Shown piece by piece: positions 25,375 through 33,318 of a stretch of DNA of 64,000 nucleotides. This DNA comes from Pelagibius marinus. Its GTDB lineage: Bacteria > Pseudomonadota > Alphaproteobacteria > Kiloniellales > Kiloniellaceae. Each line of letters opens with the position of its first letter. Position 1 is the stretch's first letter. A model generated the notes under the pieces. That model had not been told where the DNA came from. It saw only the letters and a list, made by a program, of their open reading frames with translations, and did no database searches. The stretch lies in NCBI RefSeq assembly GCF_014925385.1, contig NZ_JACSDK010000010.1, positions 372,001 to 436,000 of the forward strand. The letters run 5' to 3'. Both the position numbers and the translations under genes were made by a program.

Positions 25375-25558
25375 ACCCCGGGAGCGGCCCTCTACCGCCT
25401 CCAGAGGGCCGCTTTCCGGCAATTTTCGTCGGCAAGGGCGCTGCAGCCCCGATTCGGCATCGATTCGCTCAGCCGGGGCGGCCGTTTGACCCTTATCCCT
25501 AGGTTTGCTAAGCGAATTGCGTTAGTTTTCGTAATTGTTGCCTGGCTTGGGGGGCCTA

Positions 25559-27355
25559 ATGACTACCGACGGCCGGAAGAAGCAATTTGTCATCGAGCTG
25601 ATCAAGCCGTCGCACTATGACGACGACGGCTACGTCATCCAGTGGGCCAAGGCCTGGGTTCCGTCCAACACCCTGTCCAGCCTTTACGGCATCACGCTGG
25701 ACGTGATCGACCGCAAGCTGCTGGGCGACGACGTCGAAGTGGTCCTCAACGGCTACGACGAGACCAACACCATCATTCCGATCCAGGAGATCACCGAGCG
25801 CCTGAAGGCGCCGGACACGACGGGCGTGGTCTGCCTCGTCGGTGTCCAGTCGAACCAGTTCCCCCGCGCCCTCGACATCGCGCGCCAGTTCCGCGCCGAA
25901 GGCCTGCAGGTCGCCATCGGCGGCTTCCACGCCAGCGGCTGCATCGCCATGCTGCCCGAGTTGCCGCCGGACCTGCAGGAAGCCCTCGACCTGGGCATCA
26001 CGCTCTATGCCGGCGAGGGCGAGGGGCGGCTGCACGAGTTCTATCTCGATGCCCTGAAGGGCGAGTTGAAGCCGATTTACAACTACATGAACGATCTGCC
26101 GGGCATGGACGGCCAGCCGACGCCCTATCTGCCGGAGAGCATGGTGCGGCGCTACGGCGGCTCGGTGGCCTGCTTCGACGCCGGACGCGGCTGCCCCTTT
26201 CAGTGCTCCTTCTGCACCATCATCAACGTGCAGGGCCGCAAGTCGCGCTTCCGCGAGGCCGACGACGTGGAGCGCCTGGTGCGCGCCAACATCAAGCAGG
26301 GCATCTGCCGCTTCTTCATCACCGACGACAACTTTGCCCGCAACAAGAACTGGGAAGCGATCTTTGACCGCCTGGGCGACCTGCGCGAGGAGACCGGCCT
26401 GCCGTTCTCCATCATCATCCAGGTCGATACCCTCTGCCACAAGATCAAGAACTTCATCCCCAAGGCCAAGCGGGCCGGGGTGGCGCGGGTCTTCATCGGC
26501 CTGGAGAACATCAACCCCGACAACCTGATGGCGGCCAAGAAGCGCCAGAACCGCATCACCGAATACCGGGCGATGCTGCAGGCCTGGCGCGAGCAGCAGA
26601 TCCTGACCTACGCCGGCTACATCCTGGGCTTCCCGGCCGACACGCCGGAGAAGATCGTCCACGACATCGAGGTGATTAAGAAGGAACTGCCCATCGATAT
26701 CCTGGAGTTCTTCTGCCTGACGCCGCTGCCGGGCTCCGAGGACCATAAGAACCTCTACCTGAAGGGCGTCCCCATGGACCCCGACATGAACATCTATGAC
26801 CTGGAGCACGTCTGCACGGGGCACTCGCTGATGTCGAAGGAGGAGTGGCAGGGCATCTACAACAAAGCCTGGGAGCTCTATTACTCGGAGGAGCACCTGG
26901 ACACGCTGATGCGGCGTATGGTGGTCAGCGGCAACAAGCCGGAACGCATCTGGGCGCATGCCCTGCAGTTTGCCGGCTGCATCCGCTACGAGAAGGTCCA
27001 CCCGCTGCAGGGCGGCTACTTCCGCCGCAAGGTGCGCGGCCAGCGCCGTGCCGGCCTGCCGTTGGAATCGCCCTTCGTCTTCTATCCGCGCCGGTTGTGG
27101 GAGATGGTCACGACCTACGGCCCCTTCGCCTGGTTCGCCCTCCGGCTCTGGCTCAGGTGCCAGCAGATCAAGCGCGATCCGGCGACTCGGAGCTATAGCG
27201 ATCTGGCCCTGACGCCGGTCACCGACCACGGCGAGGACGAGGAGTTGGAGATGTTCGCCCACACCGAGGCGGCCCAGGCCGCGGTCGCCAAGGCCCACAA
27301 GGAGACCGAGGCGCGCGAGAAGCACACCAAGCAGGCGGTCGACGCGGCGGAGTAG
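25559..27355 (+). CDS. B12-binding-type radical SAM protein
   Basis: A 598-residue protein with a cobalamin-binding-like N-terminal domain (to about residue 160, ending GGFHASGCIAMLPE) and a radical SAM core. The iron-sulfur cysteines are C212, C216 and C219 in GCPFQCSFC. The classical DxHxxG cobalamin-ligand motif is not seen, so B12 may be bound base-on or not at all. The C-terminal 60 residues are charged and Ala-rich. Relatives act as methyltransferases or ring-forming enzymes with varied substrates. The ATG at 25559 gives MTTDGRKKQF; an in-frame start 24 bases upstream seems less likely. Confidence 0.85.
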   Translation: MTTDGRKKQFVIELIKPSHYDDDGYVIQWAKAWVPSNTLSSLYGITLDVIDRKLLGDDVEVVLNGYDETNTIIPIQEITERLKAPDTTGVVCLVGVQSNQFPRALDIARQFRAEGLQVAIGGFHASGCIAMLPELPPDLQEALDLGITLYAGEGEGRLHEFYLDALKGELKPIYNYMNDLPGMDGQPTPYLPESMVRRYGGSVACFDAGRGCPFQCSFCTIINVQGRKSRFREADDVERLVRANIKQGICRFFITDDNFARNKNWEAIFDRLGDLREETGLPFSIIIQVDTLCHKIKNFIPKAKRAGVARVFIGLENINPDNLMAAKKRQNRITEYRAMLQAWREQQILTYAGYILGFPADTPEKIVHDIEVIKKELPIDILEFFCLTPLPGSEDHKNLYLKGVPMDPDMNIYDLEHVCTGHSLMSKEEWQGIYNKAWELYYSEEHLDTLMRRMVVSGNKPERIWAHALQFAGCIRYEKVHPLQGGYFRRKVRGQRRAGLPLESPFVFYPRRLWEMVTTYGPFAWFALRLWLRCQQIKRDPATRSYSDLALTPVTDHGEDEELEMFAHTEAAQAAVAKAHKETEAREKHTKQAVDAAE

Positions 27356-27441: not shown

Positions 27442-28707
27442 GTGGCGCTGTCGATCTTCGAGCTTATCGCGATCCTCTTCGGGCTGGTCGCGCTCTTCGG
27501 CTACATCAACCACAAGCTCCTGGGCCTGCCGCACAGCATCGGCCTGATGGTGATCGCCCTGGGCGCGGCCCTGGCCCTGGTGGCCTTCGAGCTGGCCTTC
27601 CCGGCGACCGACGTCGACGGGCCGGTGACCGCCGCCCTGCGCCAGGTCGACTTCGACGACACCCTGCTGAAGGGCATGCTGAGCTTCCTGCTCTTCGCCG
27701 GGGCGCTCCACGTCGACCTCACGGCCCTGCGCAGCCGGCTCGCGGCCATCAGCGCCATGGCGACCCTGGGGGTGCTGATCTCCACCTTCGTCGTGGGAAC
27801 CCTCTCCTGGCTGGTCTTCGGCCTGCTGGGCCTGGATATCCCCTTCATCTGGGCCCTGGCCTTCGGGGCGCTGATCAGCCCGACCGACCCGGTCGCGGTG
27901 CTGGGCGTCCTCAAGACCATCAAGGTGCCGGCCTCGGTGGAGGCCAAGATCGCCGGGGAATCGCTCTTCAACGACGGCGTCGGCGTGGTGGTCTTCCTCA
28001 TTGTCGTCGCCATCGCCGCCGGCGGGGCGCACGCCGAGGTCGGCCCCCTGGAGGTGGCGCGCCTCTTCGCCCAGGAGGCCGGGGGCGGGGCCCTGCTGGG
28101 TGCGATCGCCGGCTACATCGCCTACCGCGCCCTGGCCAGCCTGGACGAGCATAACCTGGAGATCATGATCACCCTGGCCCTGGTGACCGTGACCTATGCT
28201 CTGGCCCAGGTTATTCACGTCAGCGGACCTATCGCGGTCGTGGTGGCGGGCATCTTCATCGGCAACCACGGCGTCGCCTACGCCATGAGCGAGAAGACCA
28301 GGGAGCACCTGCTGAATTTCTGGGAGTTGCTGGACGAGATCCTGAACTCGATGCTGTTCCTGTTGATCGGCCTGGAGGTTCTGGTGGTGCGGGTCGATCT
28401 GATCTCCGCCGAGGCGGCGCTGCTGGCGATTCCCATCGTCCTGCTGGCGCGCTTCTTCGGCGTGTCGATCCCGCTCAGCCTGCTGTCGCTGCGTCAGACC
28501 TTCACCAAGGGCGCCATCCCCGTGCTGGTCTGGGGCGGCCTGCGCGGGGGCATCTCCGTCGCCCTGGCGCTCTCCCTGCCGGAAGGCCCGGAAAAGGCGC
28601 CGATCCTCGCCATCACCTACGCGGTGGTGATCTTCTCGATCATCGTTCAGGGCCTGACCTTCAAGGCCGTGGTGAAGCGGTCATTGCGGGGACAGGAGGA
28701 GAGCTAG
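27442..28707 (+). CDS. CPA1-family Na+/H+ antiporter
   Basis: A membrane antiporter of 421 residues with about twelve predicted helices. Diagnostic motifs are LISPTDPVAVLGVLK and ESLFNDGVGVVVF, which carry the ion-binding aspartates of NhaP/NHE-type exchangers. It would export Na+ in exchange for protons across the inner membrane and help salt and pH balance. The start is GTG at 27442, placed after AAGGGGGGC. The short C-terminus lacks a TrkA-C or cNMP regulatory domain. It converges on the anti-sigma gene with a 6 bp gap. Confidence 0.92.
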   Translation: MALSIFELIAILFGLVALFGYINHKLLGLPHSIGLMVIALGAALALVAFELAFPATDVDGPVTAALRQVDFDDTLLKGMLSFLLFAGALHVDLTALRSRLAAISAMATLGVLISTFVVGTLSWLVFGLLGLDIPFIWALAFGALISPTDPVAVLGVLKTIKVPASVEAKIAGESLFNDGVGVVVFLIVVAIAAGGAHAEVGPLEVARLFAQEAGGGALLGAIAGYIAYRALASLDEHNLEIMITLALVTVTYALAQVIHVSGPIAVVVAGIFIGNHGVAYAMSEKTREHLLNFWELLDEILNSMLFLLIGLEVLVVRVDLISAEAALLAIPIVLLARFFGVSIPLSLLSLRQTFTKGAIPVLVWGGLRGGISVALALSLPEGPEKAPILAITYAVVIFSIIVQGLTFKAVVKRSLRGQEES

Positions 28708-28713
28708 GGGAGC

Positions 28714-29358
28714 CTAGCTCTCGTGATACAGTTCCTCGACCTTCACCCAGTCGCCGTCGCCGGCGCGGCAGGCGATGGCGCGGGTCTTCTGCTCTATGTC
28801 GTTGGCCACCTTGGAAGCCAGGTATTCCCGGCACCAGTGATCCGACTTGCTGCGGTAGGTGCGCACCGGGATCACCTGCCCATAGCTGCCGCTGTCGGGG
28901 TTTTGCCAGGCCACCGGCTCGCCGGAGGCCGTGTGCTCCAGGGCCCGTTCGATCGCGGCGGCGAGAATACGCTGGTCTTCCGCCTGGCGGGCGGCGATCA
29001 CCTCCAGCTCGCTGCGCAGCCGGTATTCCCCGGCCAGGTAGCCGGCCAGCGTACCGACCACGGCCAGCGCGATGGCGGCGGCCAGGGCGAAGCGCGGGGA
29101 GGGACCGGCCCTGCGGCTGCGCTGTGCCCGTTCGGCGAAGCCGCGGTCGATGGCGGCGAGCAGTTCCGGCGGCGGCGGCGCCTCGGCAGCCTCCTGGTAG
29201 GCGGCGCGGAGCAGGGCGCAGTCGCCGTGCAGGGCGCGGACCCGGGCCAGGGCCTCGGGGTCCTGCATCAGGTGTTCCGCAATTCCAGCCATGGCTTCTG
29301 GCTCCAACTGACCGTCGACATAGGCGGCGATGCTTTCAGGGTCGAGACGCTTGGTCAT
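28714..29358 (-). CDS. Anti-sigma factor with periplasmic surface-antigen-like domain
   Basis: A 214-residue membrane protein. Residues 1-80 are the cytoplasmic part (DPESIAAYVDGQL opening, typical of ECF anti-sigma factors, without a zinc HxxxCxxC motif). Residues 89-110 form one membrane helix. Residues 140-214 are a periplasmic domain whose pattern W...G..G.V.PVRTYRS....CREY....TR..ACR..DG.W matches the 17-kDa surface-antigen-type domain. The same pattern forms the body of the lipoprotein at 31065-31451, so both may recognise the same envelope component. It overlaps the sigma factor gene by 4 bp. Confidence 0.82.
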   Translation of the reverse strand: MTKRLDPESIAAYVDGQLEPEAMAGIAEHLMQDPEALARVRALHGDCALLRAAYQEAAEAPPPPELLAAIDRGFAERAQRSRRAGPSPRFALAAAIALAVVGTLAGYLAGEYRLRSELEVIAARQAEDQRILAAAIERALEHTASGEPVAWQNPDSGSYGQVIPVRTYRSKSDHWCREYLASKVANDIEQKTRAIACRAGDGDWVKVEELYHES

Positions 29359-29906
29359 CCCACGCCTCCTTCCAATCGAGTGTCCGGTTGCGGCGCCTCC
29401 TCCCCGGCAGCGGGGGGACCTTCGGACAGATGTTCACGCAAGGCCGCTCTCGCCCGGCCCAGGCGGCTGGTCACGGTGCCGACGGGCAGGCCGGTGATCG
29501 CGGCGACGTCCTTGTAGGAGCGGCCTTCCACGCAGACCAGCAGCATGATCGTCCGCTGGTCCTCGGGCAGGCGCTCGACGAAGTGGCGGACGGCCTGCAG
29601 GGTGGCGCGGTTTTCCTGGTCGCGCCGGCCGTCGCTGCTGTGTTCCAACTCGTCGCCCAGGGCCTGCAGCTTGCGAGCGCGTGAGGCGCTGTCCCGCAGG
29701 GCGTTGCGGTGCAGGTTCTGGGCGATCCGGTACATCCAGCTGTCCAGCCGGGTGCCGATCTCCCACTTGTCGAGATTGGCGATCGCCCGCTCACAGGTCG
29801 CCTGAACCAGATCGTCCCCATCGGGGATCGATCCGGTCAACCCATAGGCGAAACGTCGCAGCTGCGGTAAGACGGCGATCATTTCCTTACGGATGCCCTC
29901 GTCCAA
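29355..29906 (-). CDS. ECF (RpoE-like) RNA polymerase sigma factor
   Basis: An extracytoplasmic-function sigma factor of 183 residues. Region 2 is visible as RFAYGLTGSIPDGDDLVQATCERAI and DSWMYRIAQNLHRN, and region 4 as LPEDQRTIMLLVCVEGRSYKDVAAITGLPVGTVTSRLGRAR. I place the start at TTG 29906 (M-DEGIRKEMIAVLPQLRRF) because GGAGGGAAC precedes it at good distance and the N-terminus then matches the group; the ATG at 29882 has an ill-placed ribosome site. The long open frame further upstream is shadow. It should control its own promoter and probably the neighbouring Hint genes. Confidence 0.9.
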   Translation of the reverse strand: MDEGIRKEMIAVLPQLRRFAYGLTGSIPDGDDLVQATCERAIANLDKWEIGTRLDSWMYRIAQNLHRNALRDSASRARKLQALGDELEHSSDGRRDQENRATLQAVRHFVERLPEDQRTIMLLVCVEGRSYKDVAAITGLPVGTVTSRLGRARAALREHLSEGPPAAGEEAPQPDTRLEGGVG

Positions 29907-29962
29907 GCGTTGTTCCCTCCGCCAGCAGTGCGCGACGAACGCGCGATGCTGCTCCCCAACGC

Positions 29963-29989
29963 TCTGACAACACCTGGGCGGGCGGTTCC
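29963..29989 (-). promoter_or_regulatory. ECF-type promoter for the sigma/anti-sigma operon
   Basis: Reading on the minus strand, GGAAC (29985-29989) is followed after exactly 16 bases by GTCAGA (29963-29968), about 57 bp before the sigma factor start. This is the classical layout of an RpoE-type promoter and suggests autoregulation. I did not find an equally good copy in front of the two Hint genes. Confidence 0.55.
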
Positions 29990-30141
29990 ATCCGGCCGAA
30001 TCGGGTAGAATTGCGTTGTGGAACGTATTTTCTTTCGATGATGGACGGAATCCGGATGAAAAGACAATCTTGAGGGTTGTTAAAGTATTCCGGGCTTTCC
30101 AATGGAGGCCCGGCCCACTGTCGATCGAGGGACCTATTGCG

Positions 30142-31065
30142 ATGAAACGCCGGAACAGGGTCATTTTGACCCGCCTAATGGCCACCACCAGCATCGTTGC
30201 CCTGACGCTGACCGCCGCACCGATCGTGCTGGACCCGGAGATCGGCGGCGCGTCCCTGAGCTTTGCGGAATCGGGGAGTTCCTGCTTCGTTGCCGGCACC
30301 AAGGTGCTGATGGCCGACGGCAGCGAACGCCCGATCGAGGCGGTGCGGCCCGGTGACCTGGTGCGCGGTGGGCGCGGCGGCGTCAATCGGGTGGTGACCG
30401 TCGAGGCACCAAGGCTGGGCACCCGGCGGCTTTACGCCTTCAACGGTGGCCGCGCCTTCGTCACCGCCGAACACCCCTTCCTGACCATGGCCGGCTGGAA
30501 GGCCGTCGACCCGGCGGCGACGGCGCGCGAGAACGCCGCGCTCCAGGTGGCGGCCCTGATGACCGGCGACCTGCTGACCATGGCGCGGCCGGCGGTGCCG
30601 CAGGGCGGCGGCGACAACCTGGCGCGGGATCGCGAGATCGAGTTCTGGCTGATGCCCCTCAAGTCCATGAGCGCCTGTGCCGCCGATCCCGAGACCACGG
30701 TCTATAACCTGCTGCTCGACGGTGATCACAGCTACATCGCCGACGGCTTTGTCGTCCACAACAAGGGGGGCGACGATGGCGGTGGCGATGATGGCGGCGG
30801 CGGCGAAGGTGGTGGTGGAGAAAGCGGCGGCAACAGCGGAAGCGGCGGCGGTGGCGGTGAGTCCGGCGAGAGCGGCGAGAGCGGCGAGTCCGGGGAAAGC
30901 GGCGAAGGCGGCGAGTCCGGCGATGATGATGACGACGATGACGACGACGCCGGCGAAAGCGGCGAGCGCGGCGACGACGACTTCTTCCCTGGCGATCCAG
31001 GACGCGCGGATCGGGACCTCTCTCCCGCCGAAGAAGCGGATTTGATCGGTCGGGGGTGGAAGTGA
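30142..31065 (+). CDS. Secreted Hint (intein-like) domain protein with acidic Gly/Ser tail, copy 1
   Basis: A 307-residue exported protein. Residues 1-43 include a signal region (SIVALTLTAAPIVL). Residues 48-207 form a complete Hint domain: it opens with Cys48 (SCFVAGTKVLMADG), carries the block-B motif TAEHPF (108-113) and ends GFVVHN (His206, Asn207). The next residue is Lys, not Cys/Ser/Thr, so it is a bacterial-intein-like cleavage domain rather than a splicing intein. Residues 208-280 are Gly, Ser, Glu and Asp repeats. The last 30 residues share a DDFF...EEA..I..GW motif with the copy at 32236. The ATG at 30142 follows CGAGGGACC; the longer frame is not coding. Confidence 0.82.
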   Translation: MKRRNRVILTRLMATTSIVALTLTAAPIVLDPEIGGASLSFAESGSSCFVAGTKVLMADGSERPIEAVRPGDLVRGGRGGVNRVVTVEAPRLGTRRLYAFNGGRAFVTAEHPFLTMAGWKAVDPAATARENAALQVAALMTGDLLTMARPAVPQGGGDNLARDREIEFWLMPLKSMSACAADPETTVYNLLLDGDHSYIADGFVVHNKGGDDGGGDDGGGGEGGGGESGGNSGSGGGGGESGESGESGESGESGEGGESGDDDDDDDDDAGESGERGDDDFFPGDPGRADRDLSPAEEADLIGRGWK

Positions 31066-31451
31066 TGGCTGCGCGCGGCAAGCTGAACCTGGCGCTGCCT
31101 TCCACGGCGGGCAGTGTCATGTTTCTCCTGCTGGGCGCCTGCGCCCAGTCTCCGGCGCCGGAGCGTGGCGACCCGGTCTACAACGCCCTGGCGCCGCGGG
31201 CCGAGGTGCTGGCCCGCAACACGGTCCAGGAGGCGCTGGAGACGGTACGCAGCCGGACCACCTTGTCATGGAGCTATGTCGAGGACGGCAGCCGCGGCGA
31301 GATCACGCCGCTGCGCACCTATCGCAGCTCCGCCGGCTTCTATTGCCGGGAATACGTGGAAGTGGTAGATGCGGGCCCTGACGGACGGGCCCGCCGGCAA
31401 CGCACGGCCTGCAGGGACGATGACGGCTTGTGGAAGCCGATAAGGTCATAA
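31065..31451 (+). CDS. Small lipoprotein with surface-antigen-like domain
   Basis: A 128-residue protein whose N-terminus ends in the lipobox LLGAC, so it is probably an outer- or inner-membrane lipoprotein. Residues 55-128 carry the pattern W.....G..GEITPLRTYRS...YCREY......RQRTACRDDDGLW, closely matching the periplasmic part of the anti-sigma factor next door. The ATG overlaps the TGA of the Hint gene (TGATG), so the two are translationally coupled. A sensor or ligand role with the sigma/anti-sigma pair is inference. Confidence 0.8.
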   Translation: MAARGKLNLALPSTAGSVMFLLLGACAQSPAPERGDPVYNALAPRAEVLARNTVQEALETVRSRTTLSWSYVEDGSRGEITPLRTYRSSAGFYCREYVEVVDAGPDGRARRQRTACRDDDGLWKPIRS

Positions 31452-31461
31452 GGTAGGGTGC

Positions 31462-32133
31462 ATGCTTGCGACAATCGACGGGGTACTGGACTGGCCTGCC
31501 CTGAAGAAGATCAGAAAGGCCGTGGCGGAAGGCGAGTTCGTCGATGGTCAGAAAACCGCCGGCTTCCGCGCCAAGCGGGTCAAGCATAACGAGCAGCTGA
31601 GCCACACTGACGCCAGCCGCAAGGTCATCGACAAGATGGTGGTCGATGCCCTGATGGCAAATGCGGAATTCCAGCGGGTCGCTCTGCCCAAATCCCTTCA
31701 CCGTCCGCTGTTCAGCCGCTACCTCCCGGGGATGGACTACGGTCTGCACGTCGATGACGCGCTCATGGGCCGCGGCGAGAAGGTGCGCAGCGATCTCTCG
31801 GTCACCGTCTTTCTCAGCAGTCCCGATGACTACGATGGCGGGGAGCTGGAGATGGCCAGCCCCTATGGACCGCAGGAAGTGAAGCTCCCGGCGGGCTCGG
31901 CGGTGGTCTATCCCTCCAGCACGTTGCACAGGGTAAAGCCGGTGACCAGGGGCGAGCGGCTGGCGGCGGTCACCTGGGTGCAGAGCTATATCGCCGATCC
32001 CGCGCGGCGCGAGGTTCTTTACGACGTCGACAAGGTGCGCCGGCGCCTCATGAACGCCGAGCCGGATGCCGAGGAGACGGATATCGCGTTCAAGATCTAT
32101 GCGAACCTGCTTCGCATGTGGTCCGATCTGTAA
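31462..32133 (+). CDS. PKHD-type Fe(II)/2-oxoglutarate-dependent hydroxylase (PiuC/YbiX-like)
   Basis: A 223-residue dioxygenase of the PKHD (prolyl/lysyl hydroxylase) family. The iron-binding facial triad is visible as HVD in YGLHVDDALM and the distal His in STLHRVKPV, followed by the 2-oxoglutarate-binding Arg in RGERLAAVTW. PiuC-type members are usually linked to iron uptake, but no TonB receptor lies here. Instead it sits 10 bp after the lipoprotein and 102 bp before the second Hint gene, so it appears to belong to this locus. The start could be a codon or two later. Confidence 0.88.
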   Translation: MLATIDGVLDWPALKKIRKAVAEGEFVDGQKTAGFRAKRVKHNEQLSHTDASRKVIDKMVVDALMANAEFQRVALPKSLHRPLFSRYLPGMDYGLHVDDALMGRGEKVRSDLSVTVFLSSPDDYDGGELEMASPYGPQEVKLPAGSAVVYPSSTLHRVKPVTRGERLAAVTWVQSYIADPARREVLYDVDKVRRRLMNAEPDAEETDIAFKIYANLLRMWSDL

Positions 32134-32235
32134 TTTGAACTAAATCCAAAATAAAAAAATCTCCTGGCGCGGGATCGTTTTCCCGGCATGAAGTGTTGTC
32201 CAAGTATCAGCACTCTTATGGATGGGAGATACCAA

Positions 32236-33258
32236 ATGTCTGCGAAGAAAAGCACCGGGCATTTTCGGCTTCTGGCCAGCACCAGTATCCTCGGCCTCGC
32301 CCTCGCGGCGGCGCCTCTGACCGTCTCGGTCGATTGGCAGGGACCGGACGTGGCCCTGCAGACGGCCGAGGCGAAGAGCTGCTTCACGGCAGAGACTCTC
32401 GTGCTCATGGCCGACGGCAGTGAGAAGCGCATCTGCGATATCAAGGCCGGCGACCGTGTCATGAGCGGTCGCGGGCAGGTGAACCGCGTGGTGGCGGTGG
32501 AACGGCCACGGCTGGCCGGGCGCAAGCTCTATGCCTTCAACGGCGGTGCGGCCTTCGTGACGGCGGAACATCCCTTCCTGACGCCGGCGGGCTGGAAGTC
32601 CCTCGACCCGGCCGCGACGGCGGAGGAGAACCCGGCGCTGAGAGTGGCGAGCCTGAGCCGTGGTGACCTCGTGACCGTGGCGATGCCGCAGCGCGGCGGC
32701 GCGTTCGGCAACCTCGCTCTGGCGCTCGAACTGGAGACCAGCCTGTTGCCCCTGGAACGGATCGACAGCGTCGATGCCGACCCGCAGCTTCGCGTCTATA
32801 ACCTGCTGCTCGACGGCGATCACACCTATATCGCCGGCGGCTATGTCGTTCACAACAAGGGCGGCGAGTCCGGCGGTGGTGGCGGTGGTGGTGGTGGCGA
32901 TCGCGGCGGCGACGACCGTGGTGGTCACGACCGGGGCGGCGACCGGGGCGGCGAGCGGGGCGACGACGACCACGGCGAGGGCGGTGAATCAGCCGAGAGC
33001 GACGACGACGATCATCACGGCCGGGGCCGTGGCCGCGGGCGTGGCCGGGGCCGTGGTGGCGACGACCTTGCTGGCGAGCATGGCGAGCACGGCGAAGAAG
33101 GCGAGTTGGGTGAGCTCGAAGAGGAAGGCGACGACCATCGGGGCCGTGGGCGTGGCCGCGGGGCCGACGACTTCTTCAACGAAGAGGAGATCGAAGGCGA
33201 GGGCGATTCCCTGCCGGCGGATCAGGAAGCCTCGGCCATCGATAACGGTTGGCAATAG
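32236..33258 (+). CDS. Secreted Hint (intein-like) domain protein with Gly/Arg/acidic tail, copy 2
   Basis: A 340-residue paralogue of the protein at 30142. It has a signal region (residues 10-45), then a Hint domain from Cys49 (SCFTAETLVLMADG) through TAEHPF (109-114) to YVVHN (His206, Asn207), followed by Lys. Spacing of the motifs is the same as in copy 1 within one residue. The tail (208-310) is built of Gly, Asp, Arg, His and Glu repeats (GRGRGRG, EHGEHGEEGE), different in wording from copy 1. The end again shows DDFF, then an acidic stretch and QEASAIDNGWQ. The ATG follows GGGAGATACCAA. Confidence 0.82.
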   Translation: MSAKKSTGHFRLLASTSILGLALAAAPLTVSVDWQGPDVALQTAEAKSCFTAETLVLMADGSEKRICDIKAGDRVMSGRGQVNRVVAVERPRLAGRKLYAFNGGAAFVTAEHPFLTPAGWKSLDPAATAEENPALRVASLSRGDLVTVAMPQRGGAFGNLALALELETSLLPLERIDSVDADPQLRVYNLLLDGDHTYIAGGYVVHNKGGESGGGGGGGGGDRGGDDRGGHDRGGDRGGERGDDDHGEGGESAESDDDDHHGRGRGRGRGRGRGGDDLAGEHGEHGEEGELGELEEEGDDHRGRGRGRGADDFFNEEEIEGEGDSLPADQEASAIDNGWQ

Positions 33259-33273
33259 GCACCGTCGTAGCGA

Positions 33274-33304
33274 AGAGCCGTGGGGGCTGCCCCACGGCTC
33301 TTTT
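33274..33304 (+). terminator. Rho-independent terminator closing the Hint locus
   Basis: A perfect 12 bp stem (AGAGCCGTGGGG / CCCCACGGCTCT) with a GCTG loop followed by TTTT lies 16 bp after the second Hint gene and 15 bp before the convergent doeB stop. Confidence 0.88.
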
Positions 33305-33318
33305 CGCTTGCCGGCGGT

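Follow-up and report, generated by a model that had tools for sequence, protein, structure and literature searches.

We analyzed a 64,000-nucleotide stretch of the Pelagibius marinus genome (RefSeq assembly GCF_014925385.1, contig NZ_JACSDK010000010.1, positions 372,001 to 436,000 of the forward strand; hereafter, the window) for a gene cluster in which an extracytoplasmic function (ECF) sigma factor and an anti-sigma factor lie on the minus strand, divergent from genes for a secreted protein (Hint1), a lipoprotein, a PKHD-type dioxygenase, and a second secreted protein (Hint2) on the plus strand (Table 1). Both secreted proteins are Gly/Asp/Glu/Ser-rich low-complexity (LC) proteins with an intein-like (Hint) domain and a short C-terminal tag, and the lipoprotein and anti-sigma factor both contain a 17-kDa surface-antigen domain (PF16998, 17kDa_Anti_2; hereafter, 17-kDa domain). 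A preliminary description of this DNA had proposed the set as a new envelope system built around the Hint proteins. Open reading frames, Pfam, and NCBIfam recover the described genes in place, and the coordinates agree with the described coupling of the lipoprotein to Hint1, the ATG of the former overlapping the TGA stop of the latter as TGATG. The terminator said to close the cluster is probable: its 61-nt stretch folds at -38.2 kcal/mol, with a z-score of -5.1 against 200 shuffles. A consensus terminator scanner did not list it, probably because of its short T run. A sigma-70 promoter scan found no promoter.

Table 1. Genes and elements of the cluster (coordinates are those of the window)
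Feature	Position	Strand	Evidence or remarks
Anti-sigma factor	28714-29358	-	Cytoplasmic sigma-binding part, one hydrophobic (transmembrane) segment, periplasmic 17-kDa domain
ECF sigma factor, TTG start, 183 residues	29355-29906	-	Sigma70_r4_2 E 2.4e-16, Sigma70_r2 E 3.9e-12 (Pfam)
ECF-type promoter, sigma side, GGAT...GTGT	29970-29993	-	Pattern found in 17/24 loci on the sigma side
Probable ECF-type promoter, Hint1 side, GGATGAAA-N12-GGGTTGTT	30054-30081	+	Read by eye against relative G022 (GGATGAAA..GGGTTAT)
Hint1 (LC protein 1)	30142-31065	+	Leader with signal-peptidase-like site SFA|ES, BIL-like Hint domain, tail of low-complexity acidic/Gly/Ser sequence, tag at the C-terminus
Hint domain of protein 1, Cys48 ... 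His206-Asn207, then Lys208	30283-30762	+	Conserved residues, BIL/intein fold
C-terminal tag of protein 1, DLSPAEEADLIGRGWK	31015-31062	+	Alignment of C-termini; tag-profile match E 2.9e-12, the sequence itself being in the profile
17-kDa-domain lipoprotein, lipobox LLGAC (by eye)	31065-31451	+	PF16998 E 4e-7
PKHD-type Fe(II)/2-oxoglutarate dioxygenase	31462-32133	+	2OG-FeII_Oxy_3 E 2e-14, PKHD_C, PRK05467.1-3 E 8.5e-82
Hint2 (LC protein 2)	32236-33258	+	Leader (AEA|KS) followed by the Hint domain, a low-complexity tail containing GRGRGR stretches, and the C-terminal tag
Hint domain of protein 2, Cys49 ... His-Asn, then Lys208	32380-32856	+	Passes the Pfam cut-offs for Hom_end_hint and Vint
Probable intrinsic terminator after Hint2	~33272-33306	+	12-bp GC-rich stem, then UUUU

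The sigma factor scored above the NCBIfam cut-off for TIGR02937 and has regions 2 and 4 only, as defines an ECF sigma factor. In the anti-sigma factor, which is kept beside the sigma factor in relatives, the 17-kDa domain spans residues 127-204 (E 2e-12, 47.4 bits, with 30.3 bits in the lipoprotein and a cut-off of 26.6), and matches to zf-HC2 (E 0.036) and NF052375 (E 1.8e-10) fell below the respective cut-offs, in the latter case that for score. The lipoprotein is 30% identical to the periplasmic domain of the anti-sigma factor, with the same two Cys in both. Searching the genome itself with Hint1 at E ≤ 1 returned Hint1 and Hint2, the tail of Hint2 as a third match, and a single weak match in another part of the genome (E 0.31); Hint1 and Hint2 are thus the sole close Hint proteins of this genome.

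The assignment of a Hint domain to both secreted proteins held up. By sequence, the call ranges from borderline, for Hint1, to moderate: Hint2 passed the Pfam cut-offs for both Hom_end_hint (36.6; cut-off 32.1) and Vint (33.0; cut-off 27), and Hint1 fell just under the first (31.4) and just over the second (27.3). In a predicted structure, the Hint fold of Hint1 is clear. The AlphaFold model of its domain, made from 31 sequences, had a mean predicted local distance difference test score (pLDDT) of 92.7, and its top Foldseek matches in the PDB were 6y75 and 6tmm (E 2.6e-8), which represent BIL2, a bacterial intein-like (BIL) domain of the Tetrahymena BUBL1 locus; the model also matched 2lwy, inteins, a Clostridium BIL, and, more weakly, Hedgehog. 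Searched by sequence, Hint2 had its best PDB match in 2lwy, a bacterial intein-like domain, though weakly (E 0.0044). All 12 Hint copies found in such clusters, from nine genomes, keep Cys1, a T-(A/E)-E-H motif, the terminal His-Asn, and Lys at +1 (for copies reading CCF, the choice of the position-1 Cys between two was made by alignment). The domain carries the residues required for autocleavage. A true intein was ruled out, as +1 is Lys in 12/12 copies and not C, S, or T, and with Lys there, ordinary splicing chemistry is not open to this domain. A polymorphic-toxin pretoxin Hint was likewise ruled out: no Pfam domain follows the Hint domain in either window protein, and the tail consists of low-complexity sequence and the tag.

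To place the cluster among relatives, at least 27 loci with this sigma factor were tabulated, 23 in the order of the window's genome (20 fetched first, then G019, G048, and a second locus of G050) and four outside it (G061, G100, G207, and G322). This set is neither unbiased nor complete: loci found with the anti-sigma factor came from among the matches listed, and six (G019, G048, G061, G100, G207, and G322) were fetched through a profile of the C-terminal tag, G048 being also among the anti-sigma matches. A Hint-domain query found matches in 3 of the 23 family genomes, in 9 of the 61 from the order (those three included), and in 11 of 385 in a class sample, own genome included. The preliminary description had proposed a search for conserved gene order. 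Within the order, such conservation was found, with the Hint gene clustered divergent from the sigma gene together with the 17-kDa gene and dioxygenase in 9/9 Hint-bearing genomes (in G038, the anti-sigma gene falls off the contig), whereas outside the order, Hint mostly lies away from the sigma factor and within other proteins. Beyond the own genome, the class sample gave 10 matches, and the neighborhoods of seven were examined (G069, G135, and G142 were left out). In G423, a contig end carries Hint, tail, and tag together with a 17-kDa gene; around the Hint loci of G364, G075, G254, G332, G174, and G238, no sigma, anti-sigma, 17-kDa, or dioxygenase homolog was found at E 1e-3 in the 10-17 kb fetched. 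Separately, the closest Hint of a contig scan, 46% identical, is in a Cys-rich, 694-residue frame (L011, 4231-6315) on a contig labeled Flavobacteriales, which gave no sigma, 17-kDa, or dioxygenase match.

Using the anti-sigma factor and the dioxygenase as separate queries within the order exposed versions of the cluster that have no Hint domain at all. Hint is present in 9/27 sigma loci, and in the other 18 the slot is held by a Hint-less LC protein; 11 of these bear the same C-terminal tag, DLS..EE..I..GW. In the order, a Hint-less tagged LC protein with a related leader lies opposite the sigma gene in G043, G047, G023, G053, G054, G055, and G056, and outside it the same slot is so occupied in G100, G322, G207, and G061 (where the tag is atypical). 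G100 and G322, from a family outside the order, even repeat the gene order of the window, with the sigma gene divergent from a tagged first LC gene, 17-kDa gene, dioxygenase, and second LC gene, and neither LC protein has a Hint domain. With two-thirds of the loci (18 of 27) lacking it in that slot, Hint is to be seen as an optional insert rather than the core of the system. The preliminary description had put it at the center, with self-processing of the Hint proteins, maybe after hydroxylation, as the purpose and envelope stress sensed by the antigen-like domain. The gene set and promoters are as it described and the Hint residues are intact, but the same sigma factor, 17-kDa gene, dioxygenase, and LC protein occur without Hint (G043, G047, G023, G100, and G322); Hint as core is ruled out by these versions, and that account taken as a whole is improbable.

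Several of these species have two LC genes. In G040, G041, G042, G045, and G050, an untagged, Hint-less LC paralog comes first and a tagged, Hint-bearing one second; the first paralogs of these genomes and of G043 (L184, 5061-5894) end without the tag (e.g., ..SKG, ..NRG), so that these species encode tagged LC proteins alongside untagged ones. Extra secreted LC proteins with the leader RRRALARLGLG...AY.PVLLTLS.A.A were seen near the cluster in G053 (L187), G054 (L188, 1896-2198 and 6470-7027), and G055 (L189), and a similar leader piece is found inside the cluster LC protein of these genomes, where it separates the protein's own leader from the LC chain at roughly the position that Hint takes in others.

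Hint-less G043 offers a view of how the domain may be lost. In a tree of sigma and anti-sigma factors (25 loci, G038 absent), it groups with Hint-bearing G045 and then with Hint-bearing G042, at 100% support. The second LC gene of G043 has a mosaic make-up. Over the 60 bases upstream, its nearest match is the Hint-bearing G045 gene (0.667), but codons 21-45 match the first, Hint-less paralog of G043 itself at 0.889 identity, in comparisons of short stretches of 55-75 bases. The junction reads AQA-KGG, against AQA-(two residues)-Cys...His-Asn-KGG in the Hint-bearing form. Hint in G043 was probably removed by recombination between its two LC paralogs.

The position of the insert suggests what it does. 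A small-x-Ala site lies 2-5 residues ahead of Cys1 in 12/12 Hint copies, and the Hint-less LC proteins inspected have an AxA-like site right before the low-complexity chain (G047 has Gln at -3). Most likely, Hint cuts its own Asn-Lys bond and frees the LC chain, so that the start of the chain would be set by signal peptidase alone in Hint-less species and by the Asn-Lys cut in Hint-bearing ones. The preliminary description had allowed for release or attachment of the tail; attachment appears less likely, because only 2-5 residues are left before Cys1 after the AxA site and because +1 is Lys. A specific form of attachment would have Hint act as a ligase: through a thioester at Cys1, it would link the LC chain to the N-terminal segment, or to another amine, and so anchor the chain. 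According to the review PMC4031507 (also PMC7765530), type A BILs end in His-Asn with no C, S, or T nucleophile at +1, and those with a non-nucleophilic +1 residue are able to ligate their flanks by aminolysis; the best structural match of Hint1, moreover, is the BIL domain of a ciliate BUBL locus. The same review reports that cleavage products dominate in type A BILs, and with so few residues ahead of Cys1 in any of the 12 copies there would be little to join. We regard ligation as quite unlikely.

Alternatively, Hint may be a passenger, a BIL element that entered an LC gene and persists there without a role. Its sporadic distribution, its absence from two-thirds of the tabulated loci, and its loss in G043 fit this idea. 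The intact catalytic residues speak against it, as do ratios of nonsynonymous to synonymous substitution (dN/dS) of 0.155 for the Hint1 domain and 0.149 for the Hint2 domain between the window and its closest relative, G022, similar to the two neighbor genes measured (dioxygenase, 0.124; lipoprotein, 0.129). A passenger forced to cleave so that the LC protein stays intact would show the same conservation, and to that extent the passenger and releasing readings overlap. A Hint domain with no role at all strikes us as rather doubtful.

We then consider how the cluster may be controlled. An ECF-type pattern, GGA(A/T)-N16-19 followed by GT(G/T)T, GTTAT, or GTTTT, was counted in 24 of 26 divergent regions (G032 and G055 were left out as near-duplicates, and the second G050 locus was fetched later). 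It was found on the LC side in 17/24 regions, on the sigma side in 17/24, and on both sides in 13/24, against a shuffle mean of 1.8 per side and maxima of 6 (LC side) and 5 (sigma side), a significance that is overstated since the loci are related and shuffles of single bases keep only composition. In an unbiased tally of word pairs, elements of this kind emerged in as many as 13 loci, compared with 4-5 after shuffling. The divergent ECF-type promoter of the preliminary description is thus borne out on the sigma side of the window and, across the loci, on both sides in many; on the window's own LC side, the strict pattern is not satisfied.

The second thread that runs through these loci is the C-terminal tag, with the consensus GPDLSxxEExxxIxxGW, in which L, E, I, G, and W are invariant across 21 aligned C-termini (one being that of the anti-sigma factor of G033). 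The tag profile matched 24/61 genomes of the order (E ≤ 0.05) and 7/385 of the class sample (E ≤ 0.001). Some weak matches look spurious, and G002, G013, and G056:C99 are also among the matches; around the match in G227, no sigma, anti-sigma, LC protein, or tag was found. Further searches gave 1/22 genomes in the order of G423 (G423 itself) and 2/17 in that of G207 (G207 and G467). Among the loci with a visible anti-sigma factor, 19 have the tag on the LC protein, in trans, and there the anti-sigma factor ends untagged soon after its 17-kDa domain. In seven (G021, G032, G033, G057, G019, G048, and the second G050 locus), the tag is in cis, at the C-terminus of the anti-sigma factor after the 17-kDa domain, and the divergent gene encodes an untagged low-complexity protein. 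By profile, the cis tags of G033, G032, and G048 are clear (E 3e-10 to 2e-4) and that of G019 is weaker (0.005). No locus among these was seen with the tag on both proteins. Mainly because of this exchange between cis and trans, we suggest that the tag may bind the 17-kDa domain.

In cis-tag locus G057 (L194), the divergent LC protein is fused to a subtilase (Peptidase_S8, E 5.7e-31, Pfam). By eye, similar fusions are present in G021 (L195), G032 (L197), G033 (L196), and G019 (L238), Pfam having been applied to G057 only, and at the second G050 locus (L242) the subtilase-like LC protein is the next gene and not fused. The sigma/anti-sigma pairs of G028, G029, and G030 have no 17-kDa domain and no LC neighbor in the 6-11 kb fetched. 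L246 (G056:C89), considered as a possible anti-sigma locus, was ruled out, as it holds other 17-kDa-domain proteins. To our knowledge, the 17-kDa-antigen domain is a common envelope domain of unclear function. In Sphingomonas, two 17 kDa surface antigen genes and an ECF/anti-sigma pair are reported among salt-induced genes.

Membership of the remaining two genes is less uniform. The 17-kDa gene downstream of the LC gene is conserved in the cluster, as the preliminary description would have it, but not always as a lipoprotein: by eye, no lipobox was seen in 7/15 orthologs (G040-G043, G045, G047, and G023), which rules out the lipoprotein as a fixed part. The dioxygenase, also described as a member, adjoins 14/27 loci, and all 14 of these copies have the HxD...H...R spacing of an iron site plus Arg; no copy was seen in the DNA retrieved around the remaining 13, e.g., G053-G055, G207, and G061. 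It could be an independent, iron-linked gene that merely shares the operon, leaving the sigma factor, LC protein, and 17-kDa domains as the core. Its absence from the fetched DNA of nearly half the loci agrees with this, as do PKHD homologs in 41/61 genomes of the order, many of them elsewhere in the genome. Set against it, the dioxygenase is adjacent to the 17-kDa gene in 13 of the order's genomes (G037 and 12 in which the sigma gene shares the contig) and, in a different family, in G100 and G322. Independence has a considerable chance of being right, though less than an even one. A tie between dioxygenase presence and a tag residue (GPDLS, against GPSLS in dioxygenase-less G053-G055) was dropped, as it rests on one genus.

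Taken together, these data lead us to favor, at slightly better than even, an ECF-sigma-linked operon for secreted, probably disordered, tagged LC proteins into which a BIL-type Hint domain has been inserted in some species. The divergent promoter pair, a pattern observed across the loci, would be self-regulated and drive both the sigma/anti-sigma genes and the LC operon. Judging from their leaders, the LC proteins would be exported through Sec, with signal peptidase cleaving at the AxA-like site directly before the LC chain. In this genus and some relatives, the BIL-type Hint domain lies between that site and the chain; it would fold after export, cleave its C-terminal Asn-Lys bond, and free an LC chain starting Lys-Gly-Gly, an end resembling the one that signal peptidase alone would leave in some Hint-less relatives (e.g., AQA|KGG in G043). 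The tag would then be recognized by the 17-kDa domains of the co-made periplasmic protein or lipoprotein, as anchor or carrier, and of the anti-sigma factor, as sensor; the cis/trans swap of the tag suggests such recognition, through which the state of the secreted product might adjust the sigma factor that drives it. As a guess, the dioxygenase may hydroxylate the LC protein or another operon product before export. The stronger version, a closed loop in which the anti-sigma 17-kDa domain reads the tag of the LC protein made under its own sigma factor, the tag can move onto the anti-sigma factor in other species, and the BIL domain gives self-timed release, is tentative, and we consider it somewhat unlikely.

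A number of points weigh against the favored reading. Its history of the insert is ambiguous, since several deep nodes of the Hint tree have support under 60 and one gain followed by losses is indistinguishable from several gains (the Hint alignment and tree hold 16 of 21 rows; G423, G174, two of G238, and L011 were left out as misfits to the domain pattern). Lys also follows His-Asn in the non-module Hint proteins of G075, G254, G332, and G364, whose sequences stop only a few residues later; Lys+1 may therefore characterize this Hint family instead of marking the mature LC start. Moreover, the residue after the AxA-like site in Hint-less LC proteins varies (K, D, E, S, A, G, or F). In 11/24 loci, at least one side lacks the promoter pattern, and the LC side of the window had to be read by comparison with G022. 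As for the tag, the cis/trans count of 7 and 19 loci is neither exhaustive nor unbiased, given how the loci were chosen; the cis tag of G057 scores only E 0.035, those of G021 and the second G050 locus were under the listing limit and read by eye, the tag of G061 is atypical (GFSQ end), and the LC gene of G048 runs off the contig, so a tag there is possible. Finally, a model of the 17-kDa domain (pLDDT 81.6, from two sequences) had no significant PDB match (nothing below E 0.001; best, 0.079), and a PDB sequence search with the domain gave only E 0.51 and 0.94; a fold relative for it was therefore dropped.

Outside the cluster, the open reading frame at window positions 25535-27355 is 97% identical in G022 and lies next to an antiporter-like gene at 27442-28707; its Cys cluster CPFQCSFC, seen by eye, suggests a radical-SAM enzyme.

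The preliminary description knew of no system with this gene set, and our literature searches likewise found no published description of it and no paper joining an ECF sigma factor with a Hint domain, though the sigma factor may still belong to an existing ECF group. If the favored reading is true, the 17-kDa-antigen domain would gain a candidate ligand, the short C-terminal tag, and a role as a possible sensor of ECF anti-sigma factors. One genus, moreover, offers Hint-bearing (G042 and G045) and Hint-less (G043) versions of one secreted protein, a comparison that makes the use of BIL domains to their hosts directly testable.

Among known systems, the closest to the regulatory half are ECF sigma/membrane anti-sigma pairs such as sigma-E, which likewise combine a membrane anti-sigma factor having a periplasmic domain with divergent ECF-type promoters. 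In the sigma-E pathway, DegS senses porin C-termini, so a C-terminal peptide as possible signal is a further likeness. Unlike in known pairs, the periplasmic part here is a 17-kDa-antigen domain, common to a partner protein, and the tag can sit on the anti-sigma factor itself. The dioxygenase resembles the PKHD-type enzymes PiuC and YbiX, which are linked to siderophore receptors, in its HxD...H...R residues and a full-length match above the NCBIfam cut-off of PRK05467.1-3; it differs in sitting in an LC operon and in its low score against the YbiX model proper, 180 bits where the cut-off is 399. With inteins, the Hint domain has in common the fold, the active-site residues, and its in-frame insertion where relatives have an empty junction, and it departs from them in its invariant Lys at +1 and in being without a homing endonuclease. 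Type A BIL domains are alike in Cys1, TxxH, and a C-terminal His-Asn without a +1 nucleophile, in the BIL/intein fold, and in size, about 160 residues being too small for an endonuclease part. As known from sequence and model, the Hint domain described here differs from known type A BILs in its conserved ECF-sigma operon and in its placement between a signal-peptidase-like site and a tagged low-complexity chain.

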